In this document: piece after piece, positions 15,475 to 37,881 of the stretch | Numbering within the stretch: the stretch's first letter is position 1 | Layout of the letters: every line of letters begins with the position of its first letter | Assembly: GCF_030296015.1 (NCBI RefSeq) | Contig: NZ_AP027368.1 | Span: 496,001 to 560,000, forward strand | Source: Ferrimonas sp. YFM | GTDB lineage: Bacteria; Pseudomonadota; Gammaproteobacteria; Enterobacterales; Shewanellaceae | DNA length: 64,000 bases | Direction of reading: 5' to 3' | Made by a program: the position numbers and the translations under genes | Notes under the pieces: model-generated | Database searches by the model: none | The model's input: only the letters and a program-made list of their open reading frames with translations | What the model was told of the DNA's origin: nothing

Positions 15475-15504
15475 CAGGGCGCCTTCAAGGCGCCCTGTTT
15501 TTTT
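15475..15504. terminator. Terminator between convergent brnQ and glycosyltransferase
   Basis: Stem CAGGGCGCCT / AGGCGCCCTG with a 3-base loop, then seven T on the plus strand. The plus-strand T-run overlaps the glycosyltransferase stop codon (15503-15505). It clearly works for brnQ and may also stop minus-strand transcription. Confidence 0.88.
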
Positions 15505-16753
15505 AGGCGGCGGTGCCCGCCTTCTGGGCCAGTTGCACCGCACTCATCAGTTCGGTGCTGCACAGGCGGCTGATCTCCACCCCGTCGAAAATGGGGCCCA
15601 GAGCCGCCACCAGCCTCTCCCACTGGTCCTCATCCATCTTATCGATCAGGGCGGCAAACTGGTCTGAGACCGGGTGCGCCGGCAGGTAGTGACGGTACAT
15701 GGCCACCACGGATTTGAGCATGCTCAGGTAGGGAGAGAGTTCGGTGGTGGTGGAGAGGGCGTCGCTGTCGATCCAGCCCACCGCCACCTTGCCGATGCGC
15801 TCCGGCTGGTCCAGGGACATTCTCAGCAGCAGTTCGATGTCGAAGGCGAAGCGCTTCTCCAGCATATGTCGGGTCAGTCCGTCGATGCAGCTTGCCCTGA
15901 GCATCTTGAATCCGCACTGGGTGTCTATGATGCTGTTGAGCTGTGGCAGCAACCGTTTCCAAAGGTAGATGAACAGTTTGCCTCTGTTGTTTCGCATCCC
16001 CTGTTTGACCACCACCGAGGTGGGTTCCCGCCGGGAGCCGCAGGCGATCAGGTTATCGTGACGCTGCAGGTTTTCCACCAGCAGCCCCAACTGACCGAGA
16101 TGGGTGGAGAGATCCGCATCTGTGTAGGCGACGAAGTGCTCCCCCTGGTGGGGGTATTGGGCGGCGTGCCAGAGCCCGTGGGCGATGGAGCCCCCCTTCT
16201 GGCTGTCGTTGGTGCTGTCGAGTCCGGCGGCCGGTCCGCGTTTCTCCCGGATCGCCTCCTTCAGAAACACCACTTCGATGGGCGGGGTGCCCGGCAGGGC
16301 ATCCAGTTGCTCCAGGGCGCGGCCGCCGCTGTTTTCCGGGCAGCCGTCGTCCAGCAGTATCAGCCGCCAACGCACCTTGGGGTTGTCCTGACACAACCAC
16401 TCCAGCTGCTCAAACTTCCTCTGAATGAAGGCTTCACCATGGGGGTGCTCCTGGGGACTGAGCATCCTGTTGTGCTCTTTATACATGGCGAAAACCACAC
16501 TTATCAGTGTGTTAGGTCTACACTCTCTAAGGTAGAGCTTGGAAATGGCCAGCTTGACCGCCATCTTGGCGGCCAGCGCCTGATGCAGGATCAGTTCCTG
16601 CTCCAGCTCTTTCAGCTGATAGAGGTCCAGCCCCTGTTCCAGCAGGTGGTTGGCCATGGAGGTCAGCTTGGACAGATGTTGATGGTTGGTCAGGTTCAAA
16701 AGGTGTGTGAGCTCCCCTTGCTCGCCGATCAGATCCGTTAAGGTTTGATTCAT
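15503..16753 (-). CDS. Family 2 glycosyltransferase (dolichyl-phosphate-sugar synthase-like)
   Basis: A 416-residue protein with a helical N-terminal region (about 1-100) and a GT-A domain after it. Visible: WRLILLDDGCPENSGG (first donor-binding Asp pair), FVAYTDADLSTHLGQ (the DAD metal motif), IIDTQCGFKMLRASCI and RFAFDIELLLRMS, the last two resembling ALG5/DPM1-like enzymes. There is no membrane segment, so it is probably a cytoplasmic or peripheral enzyme. Donor and acceptor cannot be read. Strong ribosome site GGAGGGG precedes ATG 16753. It is divergent by 65 bases from the barrel gene that opens the polysaccharide region, so a role there is likely but unproven. Confidence 0.8.
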   Translation of the reverse strand: MNQTLTDLIGEQGELTHLLNLTNHQHLSKLTSMANHLLEQGLDLYQLKELEQELILHQALAAKMAVKLAISKLYLRECRPNTLISVVFAMYKEHNRMLSPQEHPHGEAFIQRKFEQLEWLCQDNPKVRWRLILLDDGCPENSGGRALEQLDALPGTPPIEVVFLKEAIREKRGPAAGLDSTNDSQKGGSIAHGLWHAAQYPHQGEHFVAYTDADLSTHLGQLGLLVENLQRHDNLIACGSRREPTSVVVKQGMRNNRGKLFIYLWKRLLPQLNSIIDTQCGFKMLRASCIDGLTRHMLEKRFAFDIELLLRMSLDQPERIGKVAVGWIDSDALSTTTELSPYLSMLKSVVAMYRHYLPAHPVSDQFAALIDKMDEDQWERLVAALGPIFDGVEISRLCSTELMSAVQLAQKAGTAA

Positions 16754-16818
16754 AACCCCTCCCTGGGTAGAAAACCTGTCAGTCCAATAACGCTAGGACA
16801 GAAAACTGGATTTAACCA

Positions 16819-17820
16819 ATGGATTGGATAAAAACTTTGCCTCTGCCCATCGCCCTGATCTGTGCGTCTTGGCCGGCCTGTGCCGACGGGGAGGGAGAGT
16901 TCTATCGGGAAGCGGGACGCCGGGCGCCGGAGCAGAAGCGGGGTAAGCTGACCCAATCCGCCAGGGCGGAGGCAAAGCCTGCAGAGGAGGCGGAGTGGCA
17001 GGGGCTCTGGAAAGGGGTGACCAGCTCCTTCGCCCTGCCCCTGGAGCACCTTCTCGACGAGGAGCGTCCCTGGTATTCCGGGCTCTCGGGCAATGTTGCC
17101 GCCTACTACCCCTTGAAGGAGAGTGTGGTCGCCACCTCTGACAACAATGTGGGGGGCATCGAGGGAACCAACCCCTCGCTGACGGCCACGGTCAAATACA
17201 ATCCTGTGGGGAACTGGTTCGCCACCCTGACCCTGTACCACTATTTTGATGGGGATCTTCAACAGCCCTGGGAGCCGGACTACACCTATGTGTTTGGCTA
17301 CAGCGACTGGCGCCCCTACACCTTCAGCCTGATCTACTCCAACTATGGCGGCAACCGGTTCTCACCCAAAGAGGGGGAGAAGGGGACCTACTTTGAGCGG
17401 GGAACCTGGTCCCTGGGATGGAAGTTTCCCATCCCCCAACCCTGGCTTCGCCCCTTCTCCATCTGGGACGACGCGTCCATGGGCTGCCAGGTGGATTACC
17501 ACTACACCCCGGAGTATTTCGATTCCGAGCAGGAGCTCTACCTCGAGCATGGCCGCAGCCTGAGCCTGGGGTGCAAGTACAGCTTTACCGGCAACTGGTA
17601 TCTGAACTTCAACCTGTTTCATTACCCGGACAGTGCTCAGAAGCAGCCCTGGAGTCCGGATTTTACCTATGGCTTTGGCTACTTCGACTGGCGCCCCTTT
17701 ACCTTCAGCCTGCAGTACAACAACTACTCAGGCAATCGCTACCCCTGGAACCCGTCAGAGCCCGGCACAGGTCGGTTCAAGGACGGTGCCCTGATGCTCG
17801 CCTGGAGCTGGGCCTTCTGA
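16819..17820 (+). CDS. Predicted outer-membrane beta-barrel protein with internal duplication
   Basis: A 333-residue exported protein. The signal peptide ends near ACA^DGEGEF, a charged linker follows, and the remainder is aromatic beta strands ending in WSWAF (terminal Phe, typical of barrels). Two copies of one unit are visible: near residues 130-180 (FATLTLYHYFDGDLQQPWEPD, then FGYSDWRPYTFSLIYSNYGGNR) and near 255-315 (LNFNLFHYPDSAQKQPWSPD, then FGYFDWRPFTFSLQYNNYSGNR). I do not recognise the family. Position at the head of the polysaccharide region suggests an envelope role. Its last 66 bases overlap the convergent gene. Confidence 0.75.
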   Translation: MDWIKTLPLPIALICASWPACADGEGEFYREAGRRAPEQKRGKLTQSARAEAKPAEEAEWQGLWKGVTSSFALPLEHLLDEERPWYSGLSGNVAAYYPLKESVVATSDNNVGGIEGTNPSLTATVKYNPVGNWFATLTLYHYFDGDLQQPWEPDYTYVFGYSDWRPYTFSLIYSNYGGNRFSPKEGEKGTYFERGTWSLGWKFPIPQPWLRPFSIWDDASMGCQVDYHYTPEYFDSEQELYLEHGRSLSLGCKYSFTGNWYLNFNLFHYPDSAQKQPWSPDFTYGFGYFDWRPFTFSLQYNNYSGNRYPWNPSEPGTGRFKDGALMLAWSWAF

Positions 17821-18543
17821 CGCATCCCTCAGACCGATGCAGAACCGGTTGGCCAGGGGCTGAAGGTCCACCCAGCGGTTGACCGTGTTGAAGCCGGTGG
17901 CGGAGACCCGAATCAGGTAACGGCCGGAGGGCAGGGTCAGCCCCTGTGAGTAGCGGGGAGAGATATTCAGCACCTCTATCTTGGCGTTGGCCGGGGTGGT
18001 TTCCACGAACAGGGGCACCAGAGAGACGTCTTGTGAGTAGCGTTTCTGATCGTCCGTCCACTGCTGCCAGAGGGCAGCCTGACGTTGCAACTGATGGTTC
18101 AATCTGGCCAGTTGCGCCTGCTGTTCGCTCAGTCGGCGACGTTGATCGCCCAGTGTCTTCTCCAGGGCACGTTGACGCCGCTCCAGGGCGGGATCCTGCA
18201 CAGGTTGTGGCAGCGGCAGTGGCACCGGGGCAATCGCCCGGGGCTGGCCGGGACGCAGATACGCCAGATAGAGGGGCAGCCACTGCGCCCAGGGTTGCGC
18301 CCTCTGCCGGGCCAGTTGGGCAAAGCGCTGCCAATCCGGATCTGTGTCGGAGGCGAGGCGCAGGCGCTCCTGCTCCATAAGCTGCGCCTTCATCGTCTGC
18401 TGAGCGCTGTGTTGGCGGATTGTCTGCAGCTGCTCCCAGCGCAGTTGCCACTGCCAGAGCAGCAGCAGGCCGAGCAGAAACAGCCCCGCAAGCAGCAGAA
18501 CACTCAGGGTGTGTTTTTTGCCGATTCCATCCATGACGGCCAT
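17755..18543 (-). CDS. Inner-membrane protein with coiled coil and PEGA-like C-terminus
   Basis: A 262-residue protein starting MAVMDGIGKKHTLS, with AGGGAG 6 bases before the ATG; the frame continues upstream but without a ribosome site. One membrane helix (about 12-30) is followed by a Gln/Arg-rich coiled coil (about 32-75 and 130-175). A Pro-rich stretch lies between (APVPLPLPQPVQD). The C-terminal 80 residues look like a PEGA domain: VETTPANAKIEVLNISPRYS, then LPSGRYLIRVSATGF. Probably a bitopic inner-membrane protein with a periplasmic, surface-interacting end. It is divergent from the Rsb-type operon and convergent with the barrel gene (66-base overlap). Function unknown. Confidence 0.7.
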   Translation of the reverse strand: MAVMDGIGKKHTLSVLLLAGLFLLGLLLLWQWQLRWEQLQTIRQHSAQQTMKAQLMEQERLRLASDTDPDWQRFAQLARQRAQPWAQWLPLYLAYLRPGQPRAIAPVPLPLPQPVQDPALERRQRALEKTLGDQRRRLSEQQAQLARLNHQLQRQAALWQQWTDDQKRYSQDVSLVPLFVETTPANAKIEVLNISPRYSQGLTLPSGRYLIRVSATGFNTVNRWVDLQPLANRFCIGLRDASEGPAPGEHQGTVLEPTCAGL

Positions 18544-18657
18544 GTGACTCCCTGTTCTTTCAGGCAAAAATAAGTGTAGTTCAGTTTGAAGGAGCAGAAT
18601 TTGTCTACTAGCGTTAAAGAAGCACAGTGGAGAGTGCAGACAGGGAATTGGGTCCAA

Positions 18658-19854
18658 ATGAAGCTATTGGTTGTGGAAGATGCCACGGATGTGCGCCTGG
18701 TCCTGGTCGCAACGTTGAAGCGCTTCGGTTATCAGGTCAGACAGGCCGCCGATGGCGCCGAAGGGTTGGCGATCCTCAAGCAGGAAACCGACATTCAACT
18801 GGTGGTGTCCGACTGGGCGATGCCGGTGATGGATGGCTTCGAGCTGTGCCAGCAGCTCAAGCAGGCCCAGGCGATCGACCGCTTCATCTATTTCATTATG
18901 TTCTCCTCCAACGACGACGAAGAGCGGATCATCTCCGGCCTGGAGGTGGGGGCGGACGATTTCATCGCCAAGCAGGCGCCCAGGGCCGAACTCAACGCAC
19001 GAATACGTGCCGGAGGGCGGATCATCGAGCTGCACAATCAGCTTCAGCGCAAGCAGGAGAAGCTGGAGAAGGCCTACGCCAGCATCGAGAACGATGTGAT
19101 GCAGGCGGCCGAAATGCACGCCAGACTGCTGCCCACCATCCGCTCCCTGCCCAGGGTCAAGTTCGCCTGGCACGCCGTCAGCTCGGCGTTTCTTGGGGGC
19201 GACATGTTCGACTATCTCGAGCTCGATGAGCGCCACATCGCCTTCTATCTGCTGGATGTGTCCGGCCATGGCCTGCCTGCGGCTCTGCTGTCGTTCACGC
19301 TCAAGCATGTGCTGTCTCCGTCCCAGCAGGGGCGAAGCCTGATGAAGCCGCCTCTGGCGTCGGCCCCCTACTACTATGTGGCGGATCCCGCCGAGGTGGT
19401 GGCCAAGCTCAATGACAGGTTTCAGTCCGATGATGAACAGTACTTCACCATGGTCAGCGGGGTGCTGAATACGCAAACGGGGTTGCTGTCTCTGTGTCAG
19501 GCCGGGCATCCCGGGCCACTGCAGCAGACCGGGGAGGCGATCATTGAGCATCACAGGAACGGTTTTCCTGTTGGCATGTTGCCCGGGCTCGACTATGAAT
19601 CTTATCAGGTCCAGTTGGCGCCGGGTGACAGGCTCTTCCTATACTCCGATGGCGCCAGTGAGTGTTTCAATGCCGCCCGTCAGGAGTTCGGGGTGGAGCG
19701 CCTGAGGCACACCCTGGAGGAGGGGAAACGGCTGGATCTGGACAGTCAGCTTCAGCAGTTAAAGCAACGTCTGGCGCTTTGGAACCAAGGCCCGGACTTC
19801 GATGACGACGTATCGGTGCTGGCCATAGAGTGGCTCGGCGATGAGGGAAAGTAA
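18658..19854 (+). CDS. Response regulator with PP2C (RsbU/SpoIIE-type) phosphatase output
   Basis: A 398-residue cytoplasmic protein. The REC domain is about 1-120, with the acidic pair VVEDA, the phospho-acceptor in VVSDWAMPVMDG and the switch Ser in MFSSN. A coiled linker spans about 120-150. A PP2C domain is about 165-395, with metal residues in LGGDMFD, LDVSGHGLPAA, LYSDGASE and DFDDDVSVL. All expected catalytic acids are present. By analogy with RsbU and SypE it should dephosphorylate the STAS protein encoded 3 bases downstream. Start uncertain: ATG 18658 gives the usual MKLLVVED; a TTG at 18601 has a better ribosome site (AAGGAG) and would add 19 residues. Confidence 0.9.
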   Translation: MKLLVVEDATDVRLVLVATLKRFGYQVRQAADGAEGLAILKQETDIQLVVSDWAMPVMDGFELCQQLKQAQAIDRFIYFIMFSSNDDEERIISGLEVGADDFIAKQAPRAELNARIRAGGRIIELHNQLQRKQEKLEKAYASIENDVMQAAEMHARLLPTIRSLPRVKFAWHAVSSAFLGGDMFDYLELDERHIAFYLLDVSGHGLPAALLSFTLKHVLSPSQQGRSLMKPPLASAPYYYVADPAEVVAKLNDRFQSDDEQYFTMVSGVLNTQTGLLSLCQAGHPGPLQQTGEAIIEHHRNGFPVGMLPGLDYESYQVQLAPGDRLFLYSDGASECFNAARQEFGVERLRHTLEEGKRLDLDSQLQQLKQRLALWNQGPDFDDDVSVLAIEWLGDEGK

Positions 19855-19857
19855 GCT

Positions 19858-20184
19858 ATGGATATGCATACTGAAACAAGAGATGGACATCTGATTATCA
19901 CCTTGAAACAGAGTCGGCTGGACGCCAGTGTGGCGCCGGGATTTCGCCGGGAACTGGAGGCGGCCATCGCTCAGGGCCATGACCGCATCGTTCTGGACCT
20001 GTCGGAAGTGACCTTCATGGACTCCAGTGGCCTGGGTGCCGTGGTGGCCATCCTGAAAGCCCTGAAAGGGGGCGAACTGCGCATCGTTGGATTGCAGCGA
20101 GCGGTCCAGGAGCTGTTCCGCCTGACCAGGATGGACAGCATCTTCCGCTGCCATGACGACGTCGGCTCTGCCCTGTCTGCATAG
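19858..20184 (+). CDS. STAS-domain anti-sigma-factor-antagonist-like protein
   Basis: A 108-residue single STAS domain (RsbV/SpoIIAA type). The phosphorylation site is in LDLSEVTFMDSSGLGAVVA near residue 57 (the first Ser of DSSG is the usual acceptor). In the Rsb scheme an RsbW-like kinase phosphorylates and inactivates it and a PP2C phosphatase reactivates it. Both partners are encoded in the same operon, the phosphatase 3 bases upstream and the kinase after one intervening gene. No sigma factor is visible, so the target may be the sugar machinery itself, as with SypA of Vibrio fischeri (inference). Confidence 0.9.
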   Translation: MDMHTETRDGHLIITLKQSRLDASVAPGFRRELEAAIAQGHDRIVLDLSEVTFMDSSGLGAVVAILKALKGGELRIVGLQRAVQELFRLTRMDSIFRCHDDVGSALSA

Positions 20185-20194
20185 GAGAGAACCA

Positions 20195-21352
20195 GTGCGA
20201 GGAATGATTCTGGGCGCGGGTAAAGGAACCCGGGTGCGTCCCATCACCGAGAAGATACCCAAGCCGATGATTCCGATCCTGCGCCGCCCGGTGATGGAGT
20301 CGATCATCTATCACTTCAAGCGCCATGGCATCGACGAGATTGTGGTCAACACCTGCCACCTGGCGCCGGTGATCGAGGATTACTTCCGCGACGGCAATCA
20401 GTATGGGGTGGACCTGTGTTACTCCTACGAGGGGGTCAAGGAGGGGGATACCCTGGTGGGCAAAGCCCTGGGCAGTGCCGGTGGCATGCGCCAGGTGCAG
20501 CAAACCTCCGGCTTTTTCCATGACACCTTCGTGGTGGTCTGCGGCGATGCCTGGATCGATCTCGATCTCACCGAGGCGCTGGCCTGGCACAAGCAACAGG
20601 GCGGACTGGCCACCATCATCACCAAACGCATGCCGGAGGAAACCCTCAACCGCTATGGGGTAGTGGAAACCGACGAGCAGGGCAGGGTGCTGGCATTCCA
20701 GGAGAAGCCTCCCCTGGGCACCGCCGTCAGCGACATGGTGAACACCGGCATCTACATCTTTGAGCCGGAGATCTTCAACTACATCCCCCCGACCGGCGAG
20801 TACGACATAGGGTCGCAGCTGTTTCCCGAGCTGGTGCGTCAGGGCATCCCCTTCTACGCCACCGCCATGGAGTTTCAGTGGGTGGACGTGGGCCGCCTGA
20901 GTGACATCTGGGAGGTGACCTGCAGCATCCTCAACGGCGAGGTGAGCAACTACCCCATTCCCGGCCGGGAGATGGCCCCTGGGATCTTCGTGGGGATCAA
21001 CTGTGTGATTGATCTGGAGATGCTGGATATCGAGGGACCGGTGGTGATCGGCAATGGCTGTCGCATCGAGACCGGCGCCAAGCTCCGCGGTCCCCTGGTG
21101 ATTGGTCACAACTGCGTGATTGAGCGAGGGGCGGTGGTCAGCAACTCCTGTCTGGACGATTACACCCATGTCAGCGGCATTGCCGCGGTGACCGACCGGA
21201 TGATCTACAAGCATCATTGCATCGATCATCAGGGGCAGCACTGCACCCTGGGGGAGATCGGCGCCGAAGGCCTGGTGAGGGACAGCCGGGCTCCCTCGGA
21301 GCCTGTCGCCCGAGAGCTGCATCAGCTGCCGGATTTCAAGGCGGGTAACTGA
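20195..21352 (+). CDS. Sugar-1-phosphate nucleotidyltransferase with left-handed beta-helix tail
   Basis: The GTG start at 20195 is preceded by TAGGAGAG; an in-frame ATG at 20153 would overlap the STAS gene. The 385 residues begin with the nucleotide loop MILGAGKGTRVRPITEKIPKP. The GT-A fold continues with VVVCGDAWIDLDL (metal Asp). The C-terminal part has hexapeptide repeats (IEGPVVIGNGCRIETGAKL, then GPLVIGHNCVIERGAVV). It should form an NDP-sugar from sugar 1-phosphate. The overall plan is that of GDP-mannose or NDP-glucose pyrophosphorylases; the exact sugar and base cannot be read. It probably supplies donor for the glycosyltransferase two genes downstream. Confidence 0.88.
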   Translation: MRGMILGAGKGTRVRPITEKIPKPMIPILRRPVMESIIYHFKRHGIDEIVVNTCHLAPVIEDYFRDGNQYGVDLCYSYEGVKEGDTLVGKALGSAGGMRQVQQTSGFFHDTFVVVCGDAWIDLDLTEALAWHKQQGGLATIITKRMPEETLNRYGVVETDEQGRVLAFQEKPPLGTAVSDMVNTGIYIFEPEIFNYIPPTGEYDIGSQLFPELVRQGIPFYATAMEFQWVDVGRLSDIWEVTCSILNGEVSNYPIPGREMAPGIFVGINCVIDLEMLDIEGPVVIGNGCRIETGAKLRGPLVIGHNCVIERGAVVSNSCLDDYTHVSGIAAVTDRMIYKHHCIDHQGQHCTLGEIGAEGLVRDSRAPSEPVARELHQLPDFKAGN

Positions 21353-21355
21353 CGA

Positions 21356-21799
21356 GTGAGCGACATGGCGAAATGCATCACCCTCAGGGGGGAGGCGGGC
21401 TACGCGGAAGTGAGCATGATGGCCAAGGCGGTGGCGGCCATGTATCAGCTCTCCGCCCTGCCGGCGAAGGACGCCTGCCTGGTGGAGCTGGCGGTGGTGG
21501 AGGTCGGTAATAACATCGTGGAGCACGCCTATGGGGACAAGCCGGGGGGGCTGCTGGAACTCAGATACCTCCAGGCAGAGTGCTCCATAGAGATTGTGCT
21601 GGTGGATGAGGGCGCCCCCATGCCCAAGGAGATGCAGGCTCGGGTTGCCTGCGCCGAGCTCCAGCAGATGGACCCGGGGGACCCCGCCACCTGGACCACC
21701 AGCGGCCGTGGTCTGGGCATAGTCAATGAAGTGATGGATGGCCAGAGCTATCGCCGCGAAGGCAACAAAAACTATTTCAGGATGATAAAACAGGCATAA
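21356..21799 (+). CDS. RsbW-like anti-sigma serine kinase (HATPase_c_2)
   Basis: A 147-residue GHKL ATPase. N-box LAVVEVGNNIVEHAYGD near residue 42, ATP-lid motif LVDEGAPM near 82 and GRGLGIVNEVMD near 120 are all intact, so kinase activity is plausible. Expected substrate: the STAS protein encoded at 19858. The GTG start is 3 bases after the nucleotidyltransferase stop; the in-frame ATG at 21365 is an alternative. Together with the phosphatase and STAS genes it completes a partner-switch module, although a sugar nucleotidyltransferase is interposed. Confidence 0.88.
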   Translation: MSDMAKCITLRGEAGYAEVSMMAKAVAAMYQLSALPAKDACLVELAVVEVGNNIVEHAYGDKPGGLLELRYLQAECSIEIVLVDEGAPMPKEMQARVACAELQQMDPGDPATWTTSGRGLGIVNEVMDGQSYRREGNKNYFRMIKQA

Positions 21800-21809
21800 G
21801 GATAGGCCT

Positions 21810-23642: not shown

Positions 23643-23690
23643 CGCAGCCCGCAGGTGTTTTTTAGGCTGGATATAAAGGAGAAAGCAGGG

Positions 23691-25031: not shown

Positions 25032-25032
25032 T

Positions 25033-27844: not shown

Positions 27845-30054
27845 GCCTGAATTCGGCCGGACACAGGCTGAGCGCCGCTGCTGAACAGCAGGGCGCGAAC
27901 CTCCCCCTCTGGCCGTTGTCGCCAAAGAAACCCCGTGTCGTTGCTGTAGCGTCGCCAGCTCTGCCCCAACTGGGACAGGGGCAGATGCAGCCTAAGCTGC
28001 CGCTCTCCGGGCTCGCCATAGCCGATGGCCCGCGCCGAGCGTTCAAACCCATCGGCGTCTGCCACCCCGACCCACAGATGGTCGGTCAGGGGCTGATCCA
28101 GGGTCAGGGTCAGCCACAGCCCCTCGCTGGCACCTGGCAGGGGAGTGGGTAGGGTCAGGCGCTGCCACTGCGCCAGGCGGAAGGGGAGGGGATCGTCCGA
28201 CAGCAGCTGGGGCTCGGGAGAGGGGGGCAGAGTCAGCCTGTGAAGCCAGCGTCCTTTGGGGTGCAGCCTCAGGGTGGTCTCGCCCTGGAGCCCGTGAAGG
28301 GGCAAAGGCAGCTGCAGCCGGTCACCGCTGCCGCTGATGCGTCGCCCCCGGCTGTCCTCCAGGTACCAGTGGCCCCAACCACTGAGCCTGAGATCCAACA
28401 GGGTCGCCGTGGAGTCATCGGCAATGATTCTGGGAGGGGGAGGGGCCTGGGCCAGCTGGTTCAGGGCGGCGGCGGCCGCCTTGGGATCATGGCCGGGGGT
28501 GAACAGGCCGAAGTGGCGCTCCGATTCTGCGAACCACCCCTGTTGCCTGGGATCGTCGGTGGCGCTGAACCAGCCCAGGGACACCAGGTTGTGACGCCTG
28601 AGGGTGGGCAGCATCCGTTTGACCCGGGCCAGTTCCAGGGCCTGACGCCCCTGCCAGCCCGGTTGAGAGGGCAGCGCCAGGTAGGCCAGATGATAGGGCA
28701 GGTCCAGGGACTGCTTCAGCAGACGGCTCAGCCTCAGGGTGCGGAACCAGGGTGACCACTCCAGGCTCTGCTGACTGAGCTCGGTGTGGGGGGAGACCAT
28801 CAGCATGGAGCCCACGAAGTCTCCCTGGGCCAGGCTCTGCAGCACAGGTTCGCTGAGGGGTTGATCCGGGGCCAGCCAGTCCCCCATCACCAGCCCGATT
28901 TTAGCTTGAGGCAGTGCCTGGCGGAGCAGCCCGGTGACCTCGGCCATCCGTTCGGGCCATTGCTCCCATTGATCGATGCCGTTCTTGTTGAACTCAGGCT
29001 CCAGCAGCAGGGTGACCTGAGGCAGGGGTTTGAGCAGAGGGATCAGCCGGGTGCGCACCATCTCCAGATAGTCCTGCCAGTGCTGGCGGACAAACTCCGG
29101 GGAGATCTCATCGCCGAAGTACCAGACGGCCACCTGGGGGGAGTAGCCGGCACGGCTGGCGGCCAGCAGCAGATCCGGCTGCAGCCAGTTCCAGTCGCTG
29201 TGACGGCTGATCCACAGGGTCAGGTGCTGTACCGGCAGCTGGTGTCTGGGCAGGTGGCGCCAGATGGGGCGGTAGTCCTGTCCGCTGCCCGTGGGTTTGT
29301 CCAGGTTGAGGCGGGCACCGGAAGACCAGGTCAGAGGCGGGGGAGCGCCCTGGGGCAGGGGACGGGTCAGAGGGGCCAGGGCGTTCAGGCGCCTATGCCA
29401 GCTGCGTTTCAGCAGGGAATCGCCACTGAGGTAGTTGTCCAGGTTGGCCTGCAGACTGGCCAGTCGAGAGGCGGCCTCTGCCTCCTGCTCCGGCAGCAGG
29501 CAGAAGATCTGGGAGAATCCGGCTCTGAGGGCGGTTTTCGAGTCCGGATAACGTCGGCTCAGCCGGTCGAAATGGGCCAGGGCGCCCTCGGGATCATCGA
29601 ACCACTCAAGCAGCACTCGTCCCTGCTGAAGGGCCACCTCCTGGGCCAGGACCGAATCCGGGTAGCTGGCCAGGAAGGCCCGGGCCTGCCGTTGCCATCG
29701 CTCGGGTTGCCCCTGCTCCAGGGGATGGCTCAGGGCCAGGTAGGCAGGCAGCTCCGGCAGCTGGCCATAGCGCCGGATCAGGCTGCGCAGGTGACGGGCC
29801 TCCAACCTGTGCACGGACGCGGGATCCAGGCTGAGGAAGTGGGTCAGCAGCTTCAGGGCCTGGTTCAGCTCCCCCTGGCCGAGTGCCAGGCGCGCTTCGA
29901 GAAACACCCAGTTGGGGTTGCTGTCCCTGTGCGTGCGCAACAGCTCTGCGGCCTGGGCAACCTCTCCCTGATAGAGTGCCAGCATGGCCCGGTCCAAGGG
30001 CGAGGCCATGGTCAGCCACCCCAGAAGGCTAAGAGTGAGTAGCAGCGGTCTCAT
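27823..30054 (-). CDS. Exported TPR protein with TIM-barrel glycosidase-like domain
   Basis: From ATG 30054 (MRPLLLTLSLLGW) the protein has 743 residues. A signal peptide (about 1-18) leads into TPR-like helical pairs (about 20-240; GEVAQAAELLRTHRDSNPNW, GELNQALKLLTHFLSLDP). About 260-540 looks like a TIM barrel: VAVWYFGDEISPEFV, VTLLLEPEFNKNGID (candidate acid Glu), IGLVMGDWLAPD and LVSLGWFSATDD. The last 180 residues are beta-rich, perhaps carbohydrate-binding. Probably a periplasmic glycan hydrolase or processing scaffold; the family is not recognised. It overlaps the upstream HAMP gene by 26 bases, so the two are one operon. Confidence 0.72.
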   Translation of the reverse strand: MRPLLLTLSLLGWLTMASPLDRAMLALYQGEVAQAAELLRTHRDSNPNWVFLEARLALGQGELNQALKLLTHFLSLDPASVHRLEARHLRSLIRRYGQLPELPAYLALSHPLEQGQPERWQRQARAFLASYPDSVLAQEVALQQGRVLLEWFDDPEGALAHFDRLSRRYPDSKTALRAGFSQIFCLLPEQEAEAASRLASLQANLDNYLSGDSLLKRSWHRRLNALAPLTRPLPQGAPPPLTWSSGARLNLDKPTGSGQDYRPIWRHLPRHQLPVQHLTLWISRHSDWNWLQPDLLLAASRAGYSPQVAVWYFGDEISPEFVRQHWQDYLEMVRTRLIPLLKPLPQVTLLLEPEFNKNGIDQWEQWPERMAEVTGLLRQALPQAKIGLVMGDWLAPDQPLSEPVLQSLAQGDFVGSMLMVSPHTELSQQSLEWSPWFRTLRLSRLLKQSLDLPYHLAYLALPSQPGWQGRQALELARVKRMLPTLRRHNLVSLGWFSATDDPRQQGWFAESERHFGLFTPGHDPKAAAAALNQLAQAPPPPRIIADDSTATLLDLRLSGWGHWYLEDSRGRRISGSGDRLQLPLPLHGLQGETTLRLHPKGRWLHRLTLPPSPEPQLLSDDPLPFRLAQWQRLTLPTPLPGASEGLWLTLTLDQPLTDHLWVGVADADGFERSARAIGYGEPGERQLRLHLPLSQLGQSWRRYSNDTGFLWRQRPEGEVRALLFSSGAQPVSGRIQAYGVFSE

Positions 30055-30637
30055 CCTGCTGCTCCAGGGTGTCAAACCACTCCAGGTTCATCTTGATGCT
30101 GTCCAGTTGCTGCTGTTGTTGCAGTGAGGGGTGGTGGCGCTGCAAGGCTTCCAGGGTTTCCAGATTGGTCTTGATGCCCCAGACCATCACCTGCAGCTTG
30201 CTGACCGCCTGGTTGAGGGTGTCGGCCACCTCCTGCATCTCGTCTCCCTGCCGCAGCACCAGAGGATCGTTGAGGTTGCCGTTGCCCACCTTCTCCAGGT
30301 GGTTGCGGATGGCAATCACCGGGCCGGCGATGCGGCGGCTCAGCCAGAACCCCGCCAGGGCGGCGAGCACTAAGTTGATCAGCACCAGGGGGATGCCCCA
30401 GGCCAAGAGGGCCGACAGGGTGTCGGGCAGTCGGGCATTGATGGCCGCCAGCTCCTGAGGCAACAGCTGGAAGGTCAGCAGGCTGGCCAGCTCCTCCAGA
30501 ATGCGATCGTAGAACAGGGCAAACTGAAGGGCACTGATCAGGCAGCACAGCAGTGCCAGCAGCAGCACCTTCAGGGTGATGGTCTTGGGCAGGCCACCTG
30601 GAGTGTCGCGAAACAGGGTTCCAAATCTACGCTTCAT
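30029..30637 (-). CDS. Small membrane protein with HAMP domain and no output domain
   Basis: The start at 30637 (MKRRFGTLFRDTPG) has AAGGA suitably upstream; 202 residues. Two membrane helices, about 22-44 and 80-100, flank a roughly 35-residue periplasmic loop. They lead into a HAMP domain (GFWLSRRIAGPVIAIRNHLEKVGNGNLNDPL, with the usual proline) and a Gln-rich coiled coil. There is no kinase, cyclase or methyl-accepting domain. It may relay a signal by coiled-coil contact with a partner. Its stop lies inside the start of the TPR/TIM-barrel gene, implying coupled translation. Confidence 0.75.
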   Translation of the reverse strand: MKRRFGTLFRDTPGGLPKTITLKVLLLALLCCLISALQFALFYDRILEELASLLTFQLLPQELAAINARLPDTLSALLAWGIPLVLINLVLAALAGFWLSRRIAGPVIAIRNHLEKVGNGNLNDPLVLRQGDEMQEVADTLNQAVSKLQVMVWGIKTNLETLEALQRHHPSLQQQQQLDSIKMNLEWFDTLEQQDETAATHS

Positions 30638-30687
30638 CAGACCATCCTTGTCTATACTTAGCACCGGGAATCAAGGAGGATGCCCGG

Positions 30688-30915
30688 ATGTTGAAGAGAT
30701 ACTGTCTAGTGTTAGCCATCACCCTGCTGACGGGGTGTGCGTCATTCCATGACCATTGCGTCTATTGTGACTCTCCCGATGCCAATGAGACCGAGCGCCA
30801 GGCACTCTGGTCACAGCTTCGCGCCGACCGGGAGCGGGCTCTTGCCAGTCAACCCAGGTCCCACACCTGCAGCCATAACCGCTGCGGCGGCGTCAGCGAC
30901 TGTCCTCATCCATAG
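30688..30915 (+). CDS. Small Cys/His-rich lipoprotein
   Basis: A 75-residue lipoprotein with a very strong ribosome site (AAGGAGG) 7 bases before ATG 30688. The signal peptide ends in lipobox LLTGC at residues 13-17. The mature part has HDHCVYC (CxxC), then after a charged helix HTCSHNRC and DCPHP: five cysteines beyond the lipid-bearing one, plus several His. This could bind a metal or form disulfides. No family is recognised. It is the only plus-strand gene between two minus-strand polysaccharide operons, and its end overlaps the GH9 gene by 23 bases tail to tail. Confidence 0.7.
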   Translation: MLKRYCLVLAITLLTGCASFHDHCVYCDSPDANETERQALWSQLRADRERALASQPRSHTCSHNRCGGVSDCPHP

Positions 30916-32485
30916 CCAGCAGTAGGCTGACCAAGCCGATGGCGGCGGCGTTGTAGTCGATGGCAAACTCGTTGACCGAGTAGTCGCGGGCATCATCCAC
31001 ATAGCTTTCCATCCCCAGGCCCTTGGGGGCGATGCCCGCCTGGCTGTCGCCGTTGGGGCCCCCCACCATCATCCCGGGAGGCACGATGCCGGCGCTGCGG
31101 CCCCAGATGTGGTGCAGATTCTTCACCGGCTTATGACCCACCCCAGTGATGTAACTTTGACCCAGAGGGTTGAGCCCCACCAGGTAGTGCCACTGGTTCC
31201 AGGCCAGCTCGAGGAAACCGCTGTTGGGCTCCAGGGCATGGCAGTGGGCCAGCATGATCCCCTGTTCTGCCACCATCTTGTTTGAGCCCCAGATGAACCT
31301 GCGGTTGGCCACCCGGTAGGGGTTGTCCCTGGCCTGTTCCGCCAATTGTCGGCAGCGTGCCAGCAGCCGGATGGACAGTTGTTGGGAGAGCAGGGAGTCT
31401 ACGTCTGCCTCCAGCAGATGCAGCGCCCCCATCAGTGACGGGTCCTTCCACTCGAACAGCATCAGACTGCCTGGCAGCTTGGCCCGGATATGGGGCAGCA
31501 GCATCTTTTCCCCTGTGGCCAGGTAGAGCTCTACCGCCGCCCAGAATCGGTCATCCCGGTCGTGATTCAGAGAGGGCTGCTGATCCCAGCGGTTGAAGAT
31601 GTAGGGGCCGGAGCCGCCGTCATCCGAGGTGCGCCAGTCGATGTGCTGGCGGGGGATGGCCCTGAGCCATTGCCACCCTTTCTGGGCGGTCTCCAGGTAA
31701 CGCTTGGCCCGCTGAGGATCCCGGTCGGAGAGCTGGCGGGCGGCCATGGCCAGCACGGCGACCGCCTTGGCGCTGTCCGGGGTGGAGATGCCGTAGAGGT
31801 ACCTCGGCTGGCGATCCAGGTGAGGGGGGACCAGTTCGGGCCAGCGGGCACCACCGACCTTGCGATAGAAGGCGCCATCGGGCCGCTGCATCTTCGGCAG
31901 CCAGTCCAGGCCAATCAGGGCCTCCTCCAGCATCGCTTCCGCCAGCTCAGGCCGGGACGGTGCCAGTTGCCTGGCGGCGTCCAGCAACCGGGCGGCGGTA
32001 ATGGTGGTGGTGGCCAGGTATTTGCCGTAGTCACCGGCGTCATACCAACCTCCGCGCACCTCCACATACTGGCCTTCGCGGTGGAAGGTGTCCCCCCGGG
32101 CCAGAATGGCGTCATTGCCGTGACCGGCGGGACGACGGTAACCCGTGGCGCCATCGAGCAGGGCACGGCCTGCGTGTTGGTAGAGGTAGGCTCGCACCAG
32201 CAGTTCCAGGGTTTGCTCCTGACCGGCCGCGCCGATGGGGAACAGATCTCCGTCACTGCCCTCAAGCTTGTACCAGCCCGGCGACACCTTCCGCTCCGGC
32301 TTAAGCCAGCCCTCGGCGTCGGCCACCAGGATGGTGGCCGGGCGTTCCTGCTGGTCGAGCAGCACCACCTTGCTGTCTGGGGCAGCTTTGGCCACCAGGT
32401 GGTCGCCGCTGAGGTAGCCACTCTGGTTGAAGAGTATCTGGGCGTTCAGCGGCAAGCTCACCAGCAGCAGCATCCAACGGGTCAT
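30893..32485 (-). CDS. Glycoside hydrolase family 9 (endoglucanase-type)
   Basis: A 530-residue exported enzyme. The short signal peptide ends near LNA^Q. An N-terminal Ig-like module (about 17-95, starting ILFNQSGYLSGDHLVAKAA) is followed by the GH9 (alpha/alpha)6 catalytic domain. The inverting catalytic pair fits the family: Asp residues in GGWYDAGDYGKY near 143, Glu in DYSVNEFAIDYNAAAIGLV near 505. LVGLNPLGQSYITGVGHK is the GH9 C-terminal signature. Expected reaction: endo-hydrolysis of beta-1,4-glucan or a related glycan in the periplasm or outside. It overlaps the GH2 gene by 4 bases (ATGA), so the two are co-translated. Confidence 0.92.
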   Translation of the reverse strand: MTRWMLLLVSLPLNAQILFNQSGYLSGDHLVAKAAPDSKVVLLDQQERPATILVADAEGWLKPERKVSPGWYKLEGSDGDLFPIGAAGQEQTLELLVRAYLYQHAGRALLDGATGYRRPAGHGNDAILARGDTFHREGQYVEVRGGWYDAGDYGKYLATTTITAARLLDAARQLAPSRPELAEAMLEEALIGLDWLPKMQRPDGAFYRKVGGARWPELVPPHLDRQPRYLYGISTPDSAKAVAVLAMAARQLSDRDPQRAKRYLETAQKGWQWLRAIPRQHIDWRTSDDGGSGPYIFNRWDQQPSLNHDRDDRFWAAVELYLATGEKMLLPHIRAKLPGSLMLFEWKDPSLMGALHLLEADVDSLLSQQLSIRLLARCRQLAEQARDNPYRVANRRFIWGSNKMVAEQGIMLAHCHALEPNSGFLELAWNQWHYLVGLNPLGQSYITGVGHKPVKNLHHIWGRSAGIVPPGMMVGGPNGDSQAGIAPKGLGMESYVDDARDYSVNEFAIDYNAAAIGLVSLLLAMDEDSR

Positions 32486-34650
32486 AGGGATACCTCGAAC
32501 TCAAAGTCGCTCCGGGCCAGTCTTTGTCCCTGCTGGTCATGGATCAGGGCCTCTGCGCGGTATCGCCCCGGTGGGAGCGAACGATTGGGAAAGGGGGCCA
32601 GGGGCATAACGCTGTCTCCGGGAATATCCAGTTGCTCTCGTCGATGTTCCACCAATTTTTCAGTGTGGTAAAGGGAAAGCGTCAGGCTGGCCTGACGGAG
32701 GGACTCCAGGTGGTCATTCACCAGAACCACGGGCAGAGGCACGGTCTCTTCCGGGCCAAACCTGTTTTGGTGGTGGACGATGGAGGGCAGCAGCGGCTGG
32801 TAGGCCTGGGCCAGGGCATGAAAGCCAGGCTTGGGGTTGCGCCGGTAATCCAGAACCCCCCAGTTCATCGAGGGCCAGTGCTCCACCAGCATAAACTGGA
32901 AAATGGCTCCCACCGGTTTGTACTTCTGGCGCCGGTAGCTCTCGGCGGCGTAGCGGGTGAGCCTGGCCTGATAGGCCTGGGTATTACGCACCAGGGCGGG
33001 CACGTCGGCGCCCGGCTCGATGCCGGCCAGCTCGAAGGTCTCCTTGGGTTGGAAGTTGTGGTACTGCCACTGTTCCCAGTTGTCGGGCAGGGAGGGCCAG
33101 TCAGAGGGCTGCCCGAGAATGCGGTACAGCACCTCGGCATCGGGCAGGGCCTGGGCACCAAACTCGGTGATCAGCTTTTCGGTGGTGGGGGTGCCGTAAT
33201 CCTGCCAGGAGCCGCTGTACCAGCCAAACCAGGGGTGTTCTGCGGTGCGGGACAGGGCGAAGGCCGGACGACCGGGATCCAGGGTACGCAGCTTGCCATA
33301 GAGTGCCAGGTCCAGCTGCAGATTCTGTTGTGGGGTGTAATCCGGGTAGCGATAGCGCATCCAGTCCGCATCCCAGGGGGGCTCGTTGTGGGCCGACCAG
33401 GTGATGATGGAGGGGTGGTGGCCGAACTGATCCACCATCTCCTGCAGTTGGGCTTCCGCCTTGGCCTGAAAGCGGGGGCTCTCCTCATAGCCCCACTGCA
33501 GGGGGAAATCCTGCCACACCAGCATGCCCGAGGCGTTGGCCAGTTCATAGAAGCGCTGGGGCAGCAGATGGGCATGAACCCGCACCACGTTGATGTTGGC
33601 CTGGCGCATCAGGGCGAGATCCCCCTGGAGCAGGGCTTCGTCGGCCAGGGAGAGATATTGATGGGGAATGTAGTTGGTTCCCCTCAGGAACAGGGGACGG
33701 CCGTTGATGGTCCAGCGGCCCAGTTGGCCATCGTAGTCAACACTGCGAAACCCCATGGTGCGCTGCCAGGTGAGCTGGGGAGCGCCGTTGTAGAGAAACT
33801 CTGCGGTCAGTCGATACAGGTGGGGAAAGCCCCTCTCGGCGGGCCACCACAGTGGCCGCTCCGCCTTCGGCAGGGTCAGCAGCGCCTCCCCGGCCCCAGC
33901 GGTGAGCGCGCCTGGCTGAAACCACTGGGTGGTGTCGCCGTCGAAGTTGACCGGGGTCAGGGTGAGCCGCCATCGCCCCTCCTTGGCTTCTGGACTGTGG
34001 TAGCTCAGGTGGAGCCGTCCCCAGGAGAGAGAGCCATCGACGCTGGTGCTCAGGTAACTGCCTTCGGTGGTGACGGCCTCCATGGGCAGCAGCTCGACCC
34101 TGCCCCAGATGCCGCCGGTGTTGAGCTCCTGCCCCCGCTCGCCCCAGGCACCTCCCGCCCGGGTGTCATGGTGACCCAGAACCCCCTTGATCAGCCCCTT
34201 GTGCAGGGACCAGGAGGGGCCCTCCTGGGGTTCCAGCGGGCTGTCCACCCGCACCGCCAGCAGGTTGTCGCCCTGGCGCAGGGCGTTGGTGGCCTCCAGG
34301 CTGAAGGCGGCGAAATAGCCGGAGTGCCCCCCCAGCCTATGACCGTTGAGCCACACTTCGGCGTGATAGTCGACCCCCTCAAACCTGAGCTGCCATCGCT
34401 CACTGCTGCCCGGCTGCCACCGAAACCGGGTCCGGTACCAGTGGGCGCCGTGGGTGTCCTGGCCCTGGGGCGTCCAGTTGCCGGGCACCCTGATCTCGGG
34501 CCAGTGGCTGTCATCGAAGCCCGGGTGGGCCGGGGCGGCCCCCATCGCCTGTTCCGGCTGGAAGCGCCAGTTGCCGCTGAGATCCTGATGGTGGTCCTGA
34601 GGGGTGTGACATCCAAACAGCAGTAGGGCTGCCATCCATAGCAAACGCAT
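32482..34650 (-). CDS. Glycoside hydrolase family 2 lipoprotein (beta-mannosidase/galactosidase type)
   Basis: A 722-residue lipoprotein (lipobox LLFGC, residues 10-14). The GH2 plan is complete: a jelly-roll sugar-binding domain (about 25-200; WYRTRFRW, GVDYHAEVWLNGHRLGGHSG), an Ig-like domain, then a TIM barrel. Visible there are MGFRSVDYDG and FLRGTNYIPHQY near residue 310, the acid/base in WSAHNEPPWD near 405 and the nucleophile in LITEFGAQALPD near 478. A C-terminal beta domain follows. Retaining exo-beta-glycosidase; the substrate (mannoside, glucuronide or galactoside) is not readable. First gene of the GH2-GH9 operon, and a likely partner trimming the same glycan. Confidence 0.9.
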   Translation of the reverse strand: MRLLWMAALLLFGCHTPQDHHQDLSGNWRFQPEQAMGAAPAHPGFDDSHWPEIRVPGNWTPQGQDTHGAHWYRTRFRWQPGSSERWQLRFEGVDYHAEVWLNGHRLGGHSGYFAAFSLEATNALRQGDNLLAVRVDSPLEPQEGPSWSLHKGLIKGVLGHHDTRAGGAWGERGQELNTGGIWGRVELLPMEAVTTEGSYLSTSVDGSLSWGRLHLSYHSPEAKEGRWRLTLTPVNFDGDTTQWFQPGALTAGAGEALLTLPKAERPLWWPAERGFPHLYRLTAEFLYNGAPQLTWQRTMGFRSVDYDGQLGRWTINGRPLFLRGTNYIPHQYLSLADEALLQGDLALMRQANINVVRVHAHLLPQRFYELANASGMLVWQDFPLQWGYEESPRFQAKAEAQLQEMVDQFGHHPSIITWSAHNEPPWDADWMRYRYPDYTPQQNLQLDLALYGKLRTLDPGRPAFALSRTAEHPWFGWYSGSWQDYGTPTTEKLITEFGAQALPDAEVLYRILGQPSDWPSLPDNWEQWQYHNFQPKETFELAGIEPGADVPALVRNTQAYQARLTRYAAESYRRQKYKPVGAIFQFMLVEHWPSMNWGVLDYRRNPKPGFHALAQAYQPLLPSIVHHQNRFGPEETVPLPVVLVNDHLESLRQASLTLSLYHTEKLVEHRREQLDIPGDSVMPLAPFPNRSLPPGRYRAEALIHDQQGQRLARSDFEFEVSL

Positions 34651-37700: not shown

Positions 37701-37881
37701 CACCGGGGTAGCCCACGGAGACCCGCAGCAGGTTCAGCTCAAACCGGGGAAACACCTCTTTGTTGATGGTGAAGGTGGCGAAAAAGCCGCCTATCAGCAG
37801 GCCGAACATCAGCAGGTTTGCCGCCACACTGTTGCGGGCAAACCAGGCGATCAGCCCTTTTCGGGTTTGCATATCACTCAT
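34756..37881 (-). CDS. RND-family efflux permease (AcrB-like)
   Basis: Proton-driven inner-membrane pump of 1041 residues. The start at 37881 (MSDMQTRKGLIAWF) overlaps the adaptor gene's stop by 8 bases. Twelve membrane helices and two large periplasmic loops are laid out as in AcrB. The TM4 proton-relay acids are present in LGIVVDDAIVIGES near residue 400. The second half has GVVVNDSLILVDFVNQARR. Sequence style fits the HAE-type branch with unknown drug or metabolite range; it lacks the Glu/Met features I would expect of heavy-metal pumps, but this was not checked closely. No TolC-like gene is adjacent, so an outer channel is borrowed. Confidence 0.92.
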   Translation of the reverse strand: MSDMQTRKGLIAWFARNSVAANLLMFGLLIGGFFATFTINKEVFPRFELNLLRVSVGYPGGAPQEIEEGITIKIEEAIKDVQGIKKVTSVASDSSGTVTIEVEDEADPAEVLDEVKLRIDTISTFPDSIEKPEVFRIRPEQDVIWLSIYGDAPLAELKELGKEIRDEITNLPAVSRADLTGAPSYEISIELSEDKLREYGLTFEEVASAVQRNSIDLPGGSIRAQDGDILLRTKGQSYTEQDFANTLVLTRADGTRVMLSDVARIRDEFTEGLRYTRFNGKTAVFVGVKSVGEQSALDISEQVRDKVAELKETLPASIEVEHWGDVTFYLQGRLNMMLTNMAQGALLVFLILALFLEFKVAFWVMMGLPVCFLGALFLMPPLGMSINLLSLFAFILVLGIVVDDAIVIGESAYSEIEQHGHTTDNVIAGAQRVAMPATFGVLTTIAAFVPMLLVPGPFGIIWKTIGFVVILCLAFSLVESKWILPAHLVHARLQKRGKAGWLGSKQHAFNLKVRQFIQERYKPVLEACIARRYTVVVGFISVLVLVGAMMGTGHIRFVFFPDIPSDFMQVQLTMEQGTSEESTLKALQHMEDQLENLDSQWQQEFGQPMVKHVLADLDSRTSGSFVIELTKGEDRLLDTNQISELWLDAIGQMPGVKGIDIQGTTGGAGADIAFRLEGKDMVMLSRAASELKEKLATYDGLQDINDNYSSGSQELRLAIKPEAEALGLTLSDLARQVRYGFYGYEAQRMLRDKEEVKVMVRYPESERRNLGHLENMRIRTPSGVEVPFSAVARVELAESYSAIIRTDGKRAITVTARANKDKVEPGKVAKEVNEEYLPELLSHYPGVQSELDGASAEESDALVSLLQGAGLALFVIYALMAIPLKSYSQPLIIMSVIPFGMIGAAIGHYMLGLSLNVLSLCGIIALAGVVVNDSLILVDFVNQARRQGIRLKDAVVEAGTRRFRAIVLTSLTTFLGLVPIVFFEKSLQAKIVIPMATSLAFGILFSTLVTLLLVPSLYLILDDFKRFIVWWWRPGAKEQKA

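Follow-up and report, generated by a model that had tools for sequence, protein, structure and literature searches.

The window analysed here, i.e. the whole stretch of 64,000 nucleotides corresponding to bases 496001–560000 of the complete 4.66-Mb genome of Ferrimonas sp. YFM (GCF_030296015.1, contig NZ_AP027368.1), contains a conserved polysaccharide system which is nearly undescribed. Its core is made up of eight genes on the + strand (positions 18586–27844 of the window) that form a single tight operon with intergenic gaps of −86 to 12 nucleotides and are arranged in the following order:

18586–19854, + strand: response regulator with a SpoIIE/PP2C phosphatase domain, RsbU-like (Pfam SpoIIE, E 2e-40; Response_reg, E 7e-23); likely start at the inner ATG at 18658
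19858–20184, + strand: STAS-only protein, RsbV/SypA-like, with a D55-S56-S57 motif (STAS, E 1e-22)
20153–21352, + strand: sugar-1-phosphate nucleotidyltransferase with hexapeptide repeats, probably of the UTP-glucose type (NTP_transferase, E 1e-49)
21356–21799, + strand: RsbW-like HATPase/serine kinase (HATPase_c_2, E 2e-20)
21810–23642, + strand: BcsA-like synthase, a family 2 glycosyltransferase (GT2), without PilZ and with QRFKY for QxxRW (Pfam, NCBIfam and PDB matches)
23655–25031, + strand: DUF3131-A, predicted to be anchored in the inner membrane (DUF3131, E 6e-149); likely start at ATG 23691, preceded by AAAGGAG
25033–26493, + strand: DUF3131-B, with a lipobox-like start (DUF3131, E 4e-125)
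26408–27844, + strand: DUF3131-C, with a lipobox-like start (DUF3131, E 3e-90)

The region had been singled out from its letters and translations as an accessory polysaccharide locus devoid of the usual Bcs, Wza and Syp components. Pfam and NCBIfam bear out the core enzymes named in this original prediction, that is, the BcsA-like GT2 at 21810, the nucleotidyltransferase at 20153 and the three DUF3131 proteins; the trio of PP2C phosphatase (18586), STAS protein (19858) and HATPase (21356) had been overlooked.

The synthase is closest to the BcsA family: its top NCBIfam match is TIGR03030 (BcsA; 218.8 bits), and comparison with BcsA in the PDB yields E 3e-45. Along with the endoglucanase-like glycoside hydrolase of family GH9 encoded downstream and the name ‘cellulose synthase’ which annotators gave to a plasmid-borne relative, this would be compatible with a divergent cellulose locus, in which plain cellulose is made and DUF3131 stands in place of BcsB and BcsZ. 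We regard such an assignment as quite unlikely, because the synthase (i) falls well short of the 699 bits required as cut-off for CelA, (ii) contains no PilZ domain according to Pfam, (iii) shares with all other members of an alignment of 81 synthases a Tyr for the Trp of QxxRW, and (iv) falls, together with these, apart from 12 BcsA sequences in a quick tree that was rooted on the latter and has long branches flagged, and because neither BcsB nor BCSC_C is matched anywhere in the complete genome. While LDDG, CDADT and VSED are invariant in 81/81 sequences, the QxxRW position is occupied by QRFKY in 80, the remaining one having QRYKY, and BcsA of PDB entry 7lby has QRIRW at the place of QRFKY; the motif of the 12 BcsA sequences is partly selected, because each was chosen as the longest frame in which Q[QR].RW occurs. 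Since QRFKY replaces the acceptor-site motif, the polymer or its acceptor may differ from cellulose. The absence of Bcs components was thus predicted correctly: the search with hidden Markov models for a standard Bcs set found none, and the sole CelA match in the genome at E 1e-30 is the locus synthase itself, which lies below the cut-off. PilZ is also absent from the scanned window proteins, the five PilZ matches of the genome being located elsewhere; other kinds of receptors for cyclic di-GMP (c-di-GMP) were not tested. The closest named relative of the synthase, from a scan of named genomes, is that of Ferrimonas kyonanensis (87%).

The association of these genes was assessed in 80 loci, the best 80 of 351 synthase relatives from the scan of named genomes, with the remaining families being counted by tblastn; the synthase is present in all 80 by construction, because it was used to find them. 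DUF3131-A-like proteins are encoded in 80, STAS proteins in 75, PP2C phosphatases in 72, HATPases in 62 and DUF3131-B-like proteins in 58 of these loci, followed by the barrel described below (49), the nucleotidyltransferase (46), DUF3131-C-like proteins (44), GH2 (37) and GH9 (22). When considering only those 61 loci whose flanks extend for 7 kb or more on either side, DUF3131-A-like, STAS and PP2C are each found in 61/61 and the HATPase in 53/61; with one such locus per genus-level group, the corresponding counts are 23/23 and 16/23. Six of the eight full loci without a HATPase detected by BLAST carry a further cluster, the one scanned member of which matches HATPase_c_2. Across 30 genus-level groups, the core genes stay together. 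Had unrelated carbohydrate genes come to lie next to each other by chance, one would expect the picture seen at the edges of the locus, where the placement of GH2 and GH9 varies and the HAMP, coiled-coil and tetratricopeptide repeat (TPR) proteins have relatives in just 4 Ferrimonas loci; for the core genes, the co-occurrence in 61/61 loci refutes this explanation and, along with the operon spacing, makes it hardly conceivable. The neighbourhoods in relatives therefore confirm that the core families co-occur, and the notion of a distinct accessory system for glycan synthesis and processing is well supported by 30 genus-level groups and the missing Bcs set, even though its partner switch had escaped notice and the inclusion of the three peripheral proteins does not hold beyond these 4 of 80 loci.

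The three proteins of an Rsb-type partner switch are present as judged by Pfam and conserved catalytic residues: a PP2C phosphatase (four catalytic Asp kept in 73/73 aligned sequences), a STAS protein with a phosphorylatable Ser (D55, S56 and S57 kept in 77/77) and a HATPase kinase (N-box residues E49 and N53 kept in 65/65). The statement that Syp components are lacking is then just partly right, because phosphatase, STAS protein and RsbW-like HATPase sit inside a glycan operon: a switch of the SypA/SypE type is there, and the rest of Syp, which comprises Wza/Wzc/Wzx-type genes, was not seen at the locus.

Precedents exist in the Syp system of Vibrio fischeri and the Hmp system of Nostoc, in which STAS protein, PP2C phosphatase and serine kinase are likewise linked to polysaccharide production and encoded beside polysaccharide genes; SypE combines kinase and phosphatase in one protein, whereas two proteins are encoded here (available part of PMC8256260). 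In canonical partner switches, the target is a sigma factor, and the targets of SypA and HmpV are, in the same part of that paper, unidentified. It is therefore a serious possibility, albeit one to which we would not give even chances, that the switch acts on transcription via a sigma factor or another regulator encoded elsewhere and leaves the synthase untouched. Against this stands that almost all full loci combine the trio with this synthase, although co-location alone does not exclude transcriptional control, and that no sigma factor was detected among the scanned window open reading frames (ORFs) or in those 7 neighbour clusters which were scanned, with one member each, out of 20 clusters of remaining ORFs recurring in at least 4 loci. 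Since the core operon revealed no sigma factor and the synthase no PilZ, the synthase complex appears to be the likeliest target. An H-NOX-type (haem-NO-binding) cluster is found near the locus in 12/80 cases (one member scanned, L063:533-1108) and hybrid-kinase relatives in 21/80; hence, some versions of the switch may receive input from gas or redox sensing.

A model of DUF3131 obtained with AlphaFold2 from nine sequences (predicted local distance difference test score, pLDDT, 72.7; predicted template modelling score, pTM, 0.79) exhibits an (α/α)6 barrel like those of GH144 and GH189, families of the SGL clan (clan GH-S). In Foldseek, the first 17 PDB matches are putative glucoamylases, β-1,2-glucanases or cyclic β-1,2-glucan synthases (best E 6e-10; template modelling scores 0.61/0.66). 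This likeness is paralleled by a sequence match to 8wy1, the cyclization domain of GH189 (E 5e-5), and by a profile–profile match to five GH189-type fragments (probability 94%, E 1.6e-7) that is confined to the N-terminal part. The five fragments (L127–L131) are considered to belong to cyclic glucan synthases on account of PF10091 and frame length. Consistently, frames of 2,816–2,974 residues, the size of presumed cyclic glucan synthases, are weakly matched by the Pfam DUF3131 model in 14 of 29 matching genomes of a draw of the phylum. An end-to-end alignment of DUF3131 and GH189 was abandoned, as the N-terminal part alone aligns; a 450-residue protein of L132 gave no match. In GH189, 44 residues separate the acid/base residue E1356 from the conserved E1400 (available part of PMC10834661). 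In three of the five fragments, the Glu of a SEAR motif precedes that of MFEY by 44 residues, and SEAR probably corresponds to E1356 because of this identical spacing. E235 of DUF3131, located in QEGR[IL], is kept in 99% of 202 sequences (the three window proteins and those 199 of 207 relatives which have 350–600 residues), and QEGR[IL] looks like the SEARL of the fragments, a likeness of E-x-R motifs which lies outside any alignment. Alignment A2 covers six of seven relatives; G182, which is split over two loci, was left out. Taken together, DUF3131 appears to resemble the clan of β-1,2-glucanases and cyclic glucan synthases in sequence and modelled fold, and may share a related activity. The available part of PMC12102758 lists GH144, GH162, GH189, GH192–194 and a Group 4 without a found substrate as members of the clan, which has a general-acid Glu and a defining Tyr and Phe; the name DUF3131 does not occur there.

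The three DUF3131 proteins differ in their predicted attachment. DUF3131-A has one transmembrane-like segment, and lipobox-like starts are found in 44/58 relatives of DUF3131-B, 30/44 of DUF3131-C and just 2/88 of DUF3131-A (mid-protein control: 4/58 for B, 0/44 for C). Among the DUF3131 proteins encoded next to the synthase, 70/72 share an anchor-helix motif, AR-x-x-[ILVMF]-x-[FYL], which is present in 1/58 B, 0/44 C, 0/17 D and 4/16 other A-like proteins; this pattern was composed after viewing the sequences, and 8 of the 80 loci gave no adjacent protein. In one genome (G286), the frame following the synthase encodes a 154-residue protein that keeps the anchor helix and has no DUF3131 domain, so that the synthase may depend on this helix, much as BcsA depends on the anchor of BcsB. 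Weak Pfam matches (L112, E 1e-4, barely over the cut-off; L105, E 0.008, and L051, E 0.04, both below) hint at fusions of barrel and DUF3131 in some loci. Vibrio and Photobacterium relatives possess a fourth DUF3131 copy within ~25 kb of the cluster.

Upstream of the core lie the barrel gene and a second GT2-like gene, and the two glycoside hydrolases are encoded downstream; three peripheral proteins complete the locus:

16819–17820, + strand: predicted 12-strand outer-membrane β-barrel with a duplicated unit (structure model)
15503–16753, − strand: second GT2-like protein (marginal Pfam match)
30893–32485, − strand: GH9 endoglucanase-like enzyme (Pfam, E 1e-67)
32482–34650, − strand: GH2 enzyme, nearest to β-mannosidases (Pfam, PDB)
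17755–18657, − strand: coiled-coil membrane protein, peripheral, Ferrimonas only (one transmembrane-like segment)
27823–30075, − strand: protein with weak TPRs, peripheral, Ferrimonas only (sub-cut-off Pfam TPR)
30029–30664, − strand: HAMP-only membrane protein, peripheral, Ferrimonas only (HAMP, E 3e-8)

GH9, GH2 and the HAMP-only protein were recovered as predicted, and for several other proteins the outcome was mixed. Only the GT2 at 21810 is a clear glycosyltransferase, since the one at 15503, with 23.2 bits (E 7e-5), just misses the Pfam cut-off of 23.3 and has neither an NCBIfam match nor a PDB relative; 4 close and 32 more distant relatives of it occur among the 80 loci. The duplicated-unit barrel at 16819 finds no Pfam match, while its model does show 12 strands. 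For the protein at 27823, the TPRs are weak (24.2 versus 26.3 bits) and the TIM barrel was dropped, as nothing in Pfam or among PDB sequences corresponds to it. The proposed coiled-coil/PEGA protein at 17755 shows no PEGA match at E 0.01, just a coiled-coil model below cut-off. An AcrB-type RND pump and a HlyD-family fusion protein (window positions 34756–39064) adjoin the GH2 gene on the same strand.

With regard to the sugar polymerised, the nucleotidyltransferase matches PDB entry 8x7s, named UTP-glucose-1-phosphate uridylyltransferase, with 438 bits (next best, 97), an entry that is not mentioned in the literature searched. A mannan derived from GDP-mannose is disfavoured, because this closest solved relative is named as a UTP-glucose enzyme; mannose may nonetheless be involved, since the best NCBIfam model, below its cut-off, is a mannose-1-phosphate guanylyltransferase and the nearest PDB relatives of GH2 are β-mannosidases. 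Both hydrolases retain their acidic residues, i.e. the two catalytic Glu of GH2 in 35/37 sequences (gaps in 2), and D149 and D152 (22/23) as well as E506 (23/23) of the endoglucanase-like GH9. GH16 or GH10 enzymes are encoded in some relatives, and GH9, GH10 and GH16 are usually active on β-1,4 or β-1,3 linkages. An OpgC_C cluster occurs in 6/80 loci, and OpgC or Acyl_transf_3 matches are found among neighbours in relatives and in plasmid copies. The likeliest product is, then, a β-linked glucan that is perhaps acylated by OpgC or Acyl_transf_3 proteins.

Such acylation, and the fact that the closest folds of DUF3131 are β-1,2-glucanases and cyclic β-1,2-glucan synthases, would also suit a periplasmic glucan of the osmoregulated type, possibly β-1,2-linked, which is processed by DUF3131 proteins as relatives of GH144 and GH189 and decorated by an OpgC-like acyltransferase, with the barrel as a minor porin. 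Apart from the OpgC_C cluster, opgC lies by the synthase on Salmonella and Pantoea plasmids, OpgC is part of a Klebsiella gene block (available part of PMC12974863), and four Shewanella genes belong to a DUF3131 salt-shock module (available part of PMC8371737). However, the synthase is BcsA-like, the neighbours are GH9, GH10 and GH16 enzymes, a barrel gene is present in 49/80 loci and some loci encode RTX-type secreted proteins, which renders a periplasmic product rather unlikely. Three Vibrio-type loci (L043, L044, L139) encode a 1620-residue protein of GGxGxD-type repeats as well as ABC-transporter and fusion-protein genes that, on reading their sequences, resemble a type I secretion pair.

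The model of the barrel (12 strands; pLDDT 80.1, pTM 0.73) is weakly matched by FapF (template modelling scores 0.38/0.46) and NanC (0.40/0.60), and barrel relatives with 25–50% identity are encoded in all four plasmid copies read; the protein may form an outer-membrane channel. Export of the Wza type was dropped, as the window holds no Poly_export gene. The three matches of the genome are located at 1.24, 1.83 and 2.20 Mb of the contig, far from the window at 0.496–0.560 Mb, in accordance with the predicted absence of Wza at the locus; the model searches did not extend to Wzx, Wzy or Wzc. The genome G286 deviates here, too: divergently from its synthase it encodes a 909-residue TPR protein that matches a PgaA-type barrel, albeit below the cut-off (E 1e-5), and a GH10 gene is nearby.

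Based on this evidence, we are inclined to view the locus as an exopolysaccharide system resembling the synthase-dependent ones, in which a partner switch replaces control by c-di-GMP, DUF3131-A does the job of BcsB and the barrel likely serves as pore. By homology, the nucleotidyltransferase would supply a nucleotide sugar, probably UDP-glucose, which the BcsA-like synthase would polymerise across the inner membrane, its QRFKY motif possibly selecting a polymer or acceptor other than that of cellulose synthases. DUF3131-A is predicted to dock on the synthase via its anchor helix and to hold its (α/α)6 domain at the periplasmic exit, where it may fill the role of BcsB and, in addition, that of a BcsZ-like processing enzyme. 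DUF3131-B and DUF3131-C, with their lipobox-like starts, as well as GH9 and GH2 could trim or remodel the chain further out, with the 12-strand barrel as the likely outlet through the outer membrane. A signal received by the response regulator–PP2C protein would lead to dephosphorylation of the STAS protein, which would then capture the RsbW-like kinase and free the target of the latter, most plausibly the synthase complex itself. Polymer, export route and switch target are the more conjectural parts of this scheme. It is tempting, if decidedly tentative, to go further and speculate that all parts hold jointly: a further synthase-dependent class present in several bacterial classes and on plasmids, gated directly at its synthase by the switch in place of c-di-GMP, using a QxxKY acceptor site to make a glucan other than cellulose, and employing DUF3131 both as BcsB-like partner and as a new family of clan GH-S that remodels the nascent chain. 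We consider this combination doubtful.

Several observations weigh against the interpretation that we prefer. First, no alignment with GH189 was obtained for the C-terminal half of DUF3131, both the C-terminal and the global profile alignments having failed. Second, DUF3131 and the synthase can occur separately: the fourth DUF3131 gene of the genome (L045:17718-19127, ~4.295 Mb) is an orphan by argS, a SPOR-domain gene and other housekeeping genes; divergent DUF3131 proteins are found in other settings, without this synthase nearby, in 4 of 16 DUF3131-bearing genomes of the phylum draw; and G286 possesses synthase and switch and has no DUF3131 match. Third, two loci (L098, L123) have no HATPase, either by BLAST or by the further cluster, and the partner switches of other systems are directed at sigma factors or at targets unidentified in the available part of PMC8256260. 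Finally, the nearest relatives of GH2 are β-mannosidases, and the barrel has 12 predicted strands, weak fold matches and no fused TPR.

It is then of interest to compare the locus with known systems. The Bcs system (BcsABZC) is similar in that a BcsA-like GT2, an anchored periplasmic partner and periplasmic glycanases are combined (the latter two predicted here), and differs in that the locus has QRFKY for QxxRW, and DUF3131 along with a partner switch instead of PilZ, BcsB and BCSC_C; it does not belong to Bcs as defined by BcsA with PilZ, BcsB and BcsC. Synthase-dependent exopolysaccharide systems have been given a four-part definition, including a c-di-GMP-binding part, and five systems were named (available part of PMC7112194). 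With respect to this definition, the locus encodes (i) a membrane polysaccharide synthase (a BcsA-like GT2 according to Pfam, NCBIfam and a PDB profile), (ii) no c-di-GMP-binding domain or co-polymerase as far as tested (PilZ, BcsB), (iii) putative periplasmic modification enzymes, namely GH9 and GH2 with conserved acidic residues and DUF3131 with an enzyme-like modelled fold, and (iv) a modelled barrel without TPR, TPR and PgaA-type barrel being combined in G286 only. Because of (ii), the locus would work like a synthase-dependent system rather than being one as defined. Regarding the SGL clan, DUF3131 shares its closest solved folds, a weak GH189 match and a similar E-x-R motif, yet is not a named member and cannot be aligned in its C-terminal half.

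We found no description of such a system in the literature searched, most subscription journals lying outside it; PF11329 is not named there, and DUF3131 appears in three papers. The c-di-GMP review PMC8461298 contains neither ‘STAS’ nor ‘DUF3131’. As far as their available parts show, PMC8371737 places four Shewanella piezotolerans genes under the salt-shock module, PMC6382750 lists one Brucella DUF3131 gene, and PMC12974863 describes an accessory ‘block 3b’ of Klebsiella pneumoniae with cellulose synthase, three DUF3131, OpgC and anti-sigma genes. Judged by its gene list alone, the latter is evidently the same kind of locus; it adds OpgC and is an accessory block of population genomics to which no function is assigned.

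The hosts of the locus are Gamma-, Beta- and Alphaproteobacteria and Desulfobacteria, and there are isolated records under the names Myxococcia, Sericytochromatia and Mycobacterium, although bins and lone records can be mislabelled. In a draw of 197 genomes from the order, DUF3131 exceeds the cut-off in 9 (full-length in 8), and it is lacking in the sole other genome of the same genus in this draw. In the phylum draw of 299 genomes, a synthase is found at E<=1e-100 in 11, ten of which have DUF3131 (the exception being G286), and a twelfth, more distant one (G321, 41%) was spotted on inspection; conversely, DUF3131 is found at E<1e-20 in 16 genomes, with an adjacent synthase in 11 and on a 3-kb contig in one (G380). 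Moreover, 17 of 72,556 plasmid records match the synthase at E 1e-60, including 8 from Pantoea and 2 from Salmonella. Patchiness and plasmids suggest lateral transfer, which the tree does not prove. In E. coli, neither the synthase gene of the window nor that of the Salmonella plasmid had a DNA match, a DNA search being weak at such distance.

We thus propose that the locus represents a widespread, patchy and sometimes plasmid-borne alternative to c-di-GMP systems with a phosphorylation switch in its core, and that it offers a concrete functional hypothesis for DUF3131, a domain family so far without one. Since similar loci are present in Klebsiella (by the gene list in the available part of PMC12974863), Salmonella and Pantoea, the identity of the product would bear on niche adaptation. 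Few targets are required for experiments: one synthase, one STAS serine and one conserved anchor helix.

Thiothrix, Leucothrix, Cocleimonas and Crenothrix, which are filamentous and partly sheathed bacteria, carry the locus as well (L062–L064, L066, L069, L078, L088, L104, L114), and a role of the product as sheath glycan is suggested as worth testing in these. On the plasmids of Salmonella and Pantoea (L136, L137), opgC is situated beside the synthase; a globin gene accompanies the Salmonella copy, the plasmid of which is conjugative by typing. Finally, the locus is present twice on one contig of Shewanella abyssi (L096, L097), in opposite orientation and with identical synthases, reflecting either a duplication or an assembly effect.

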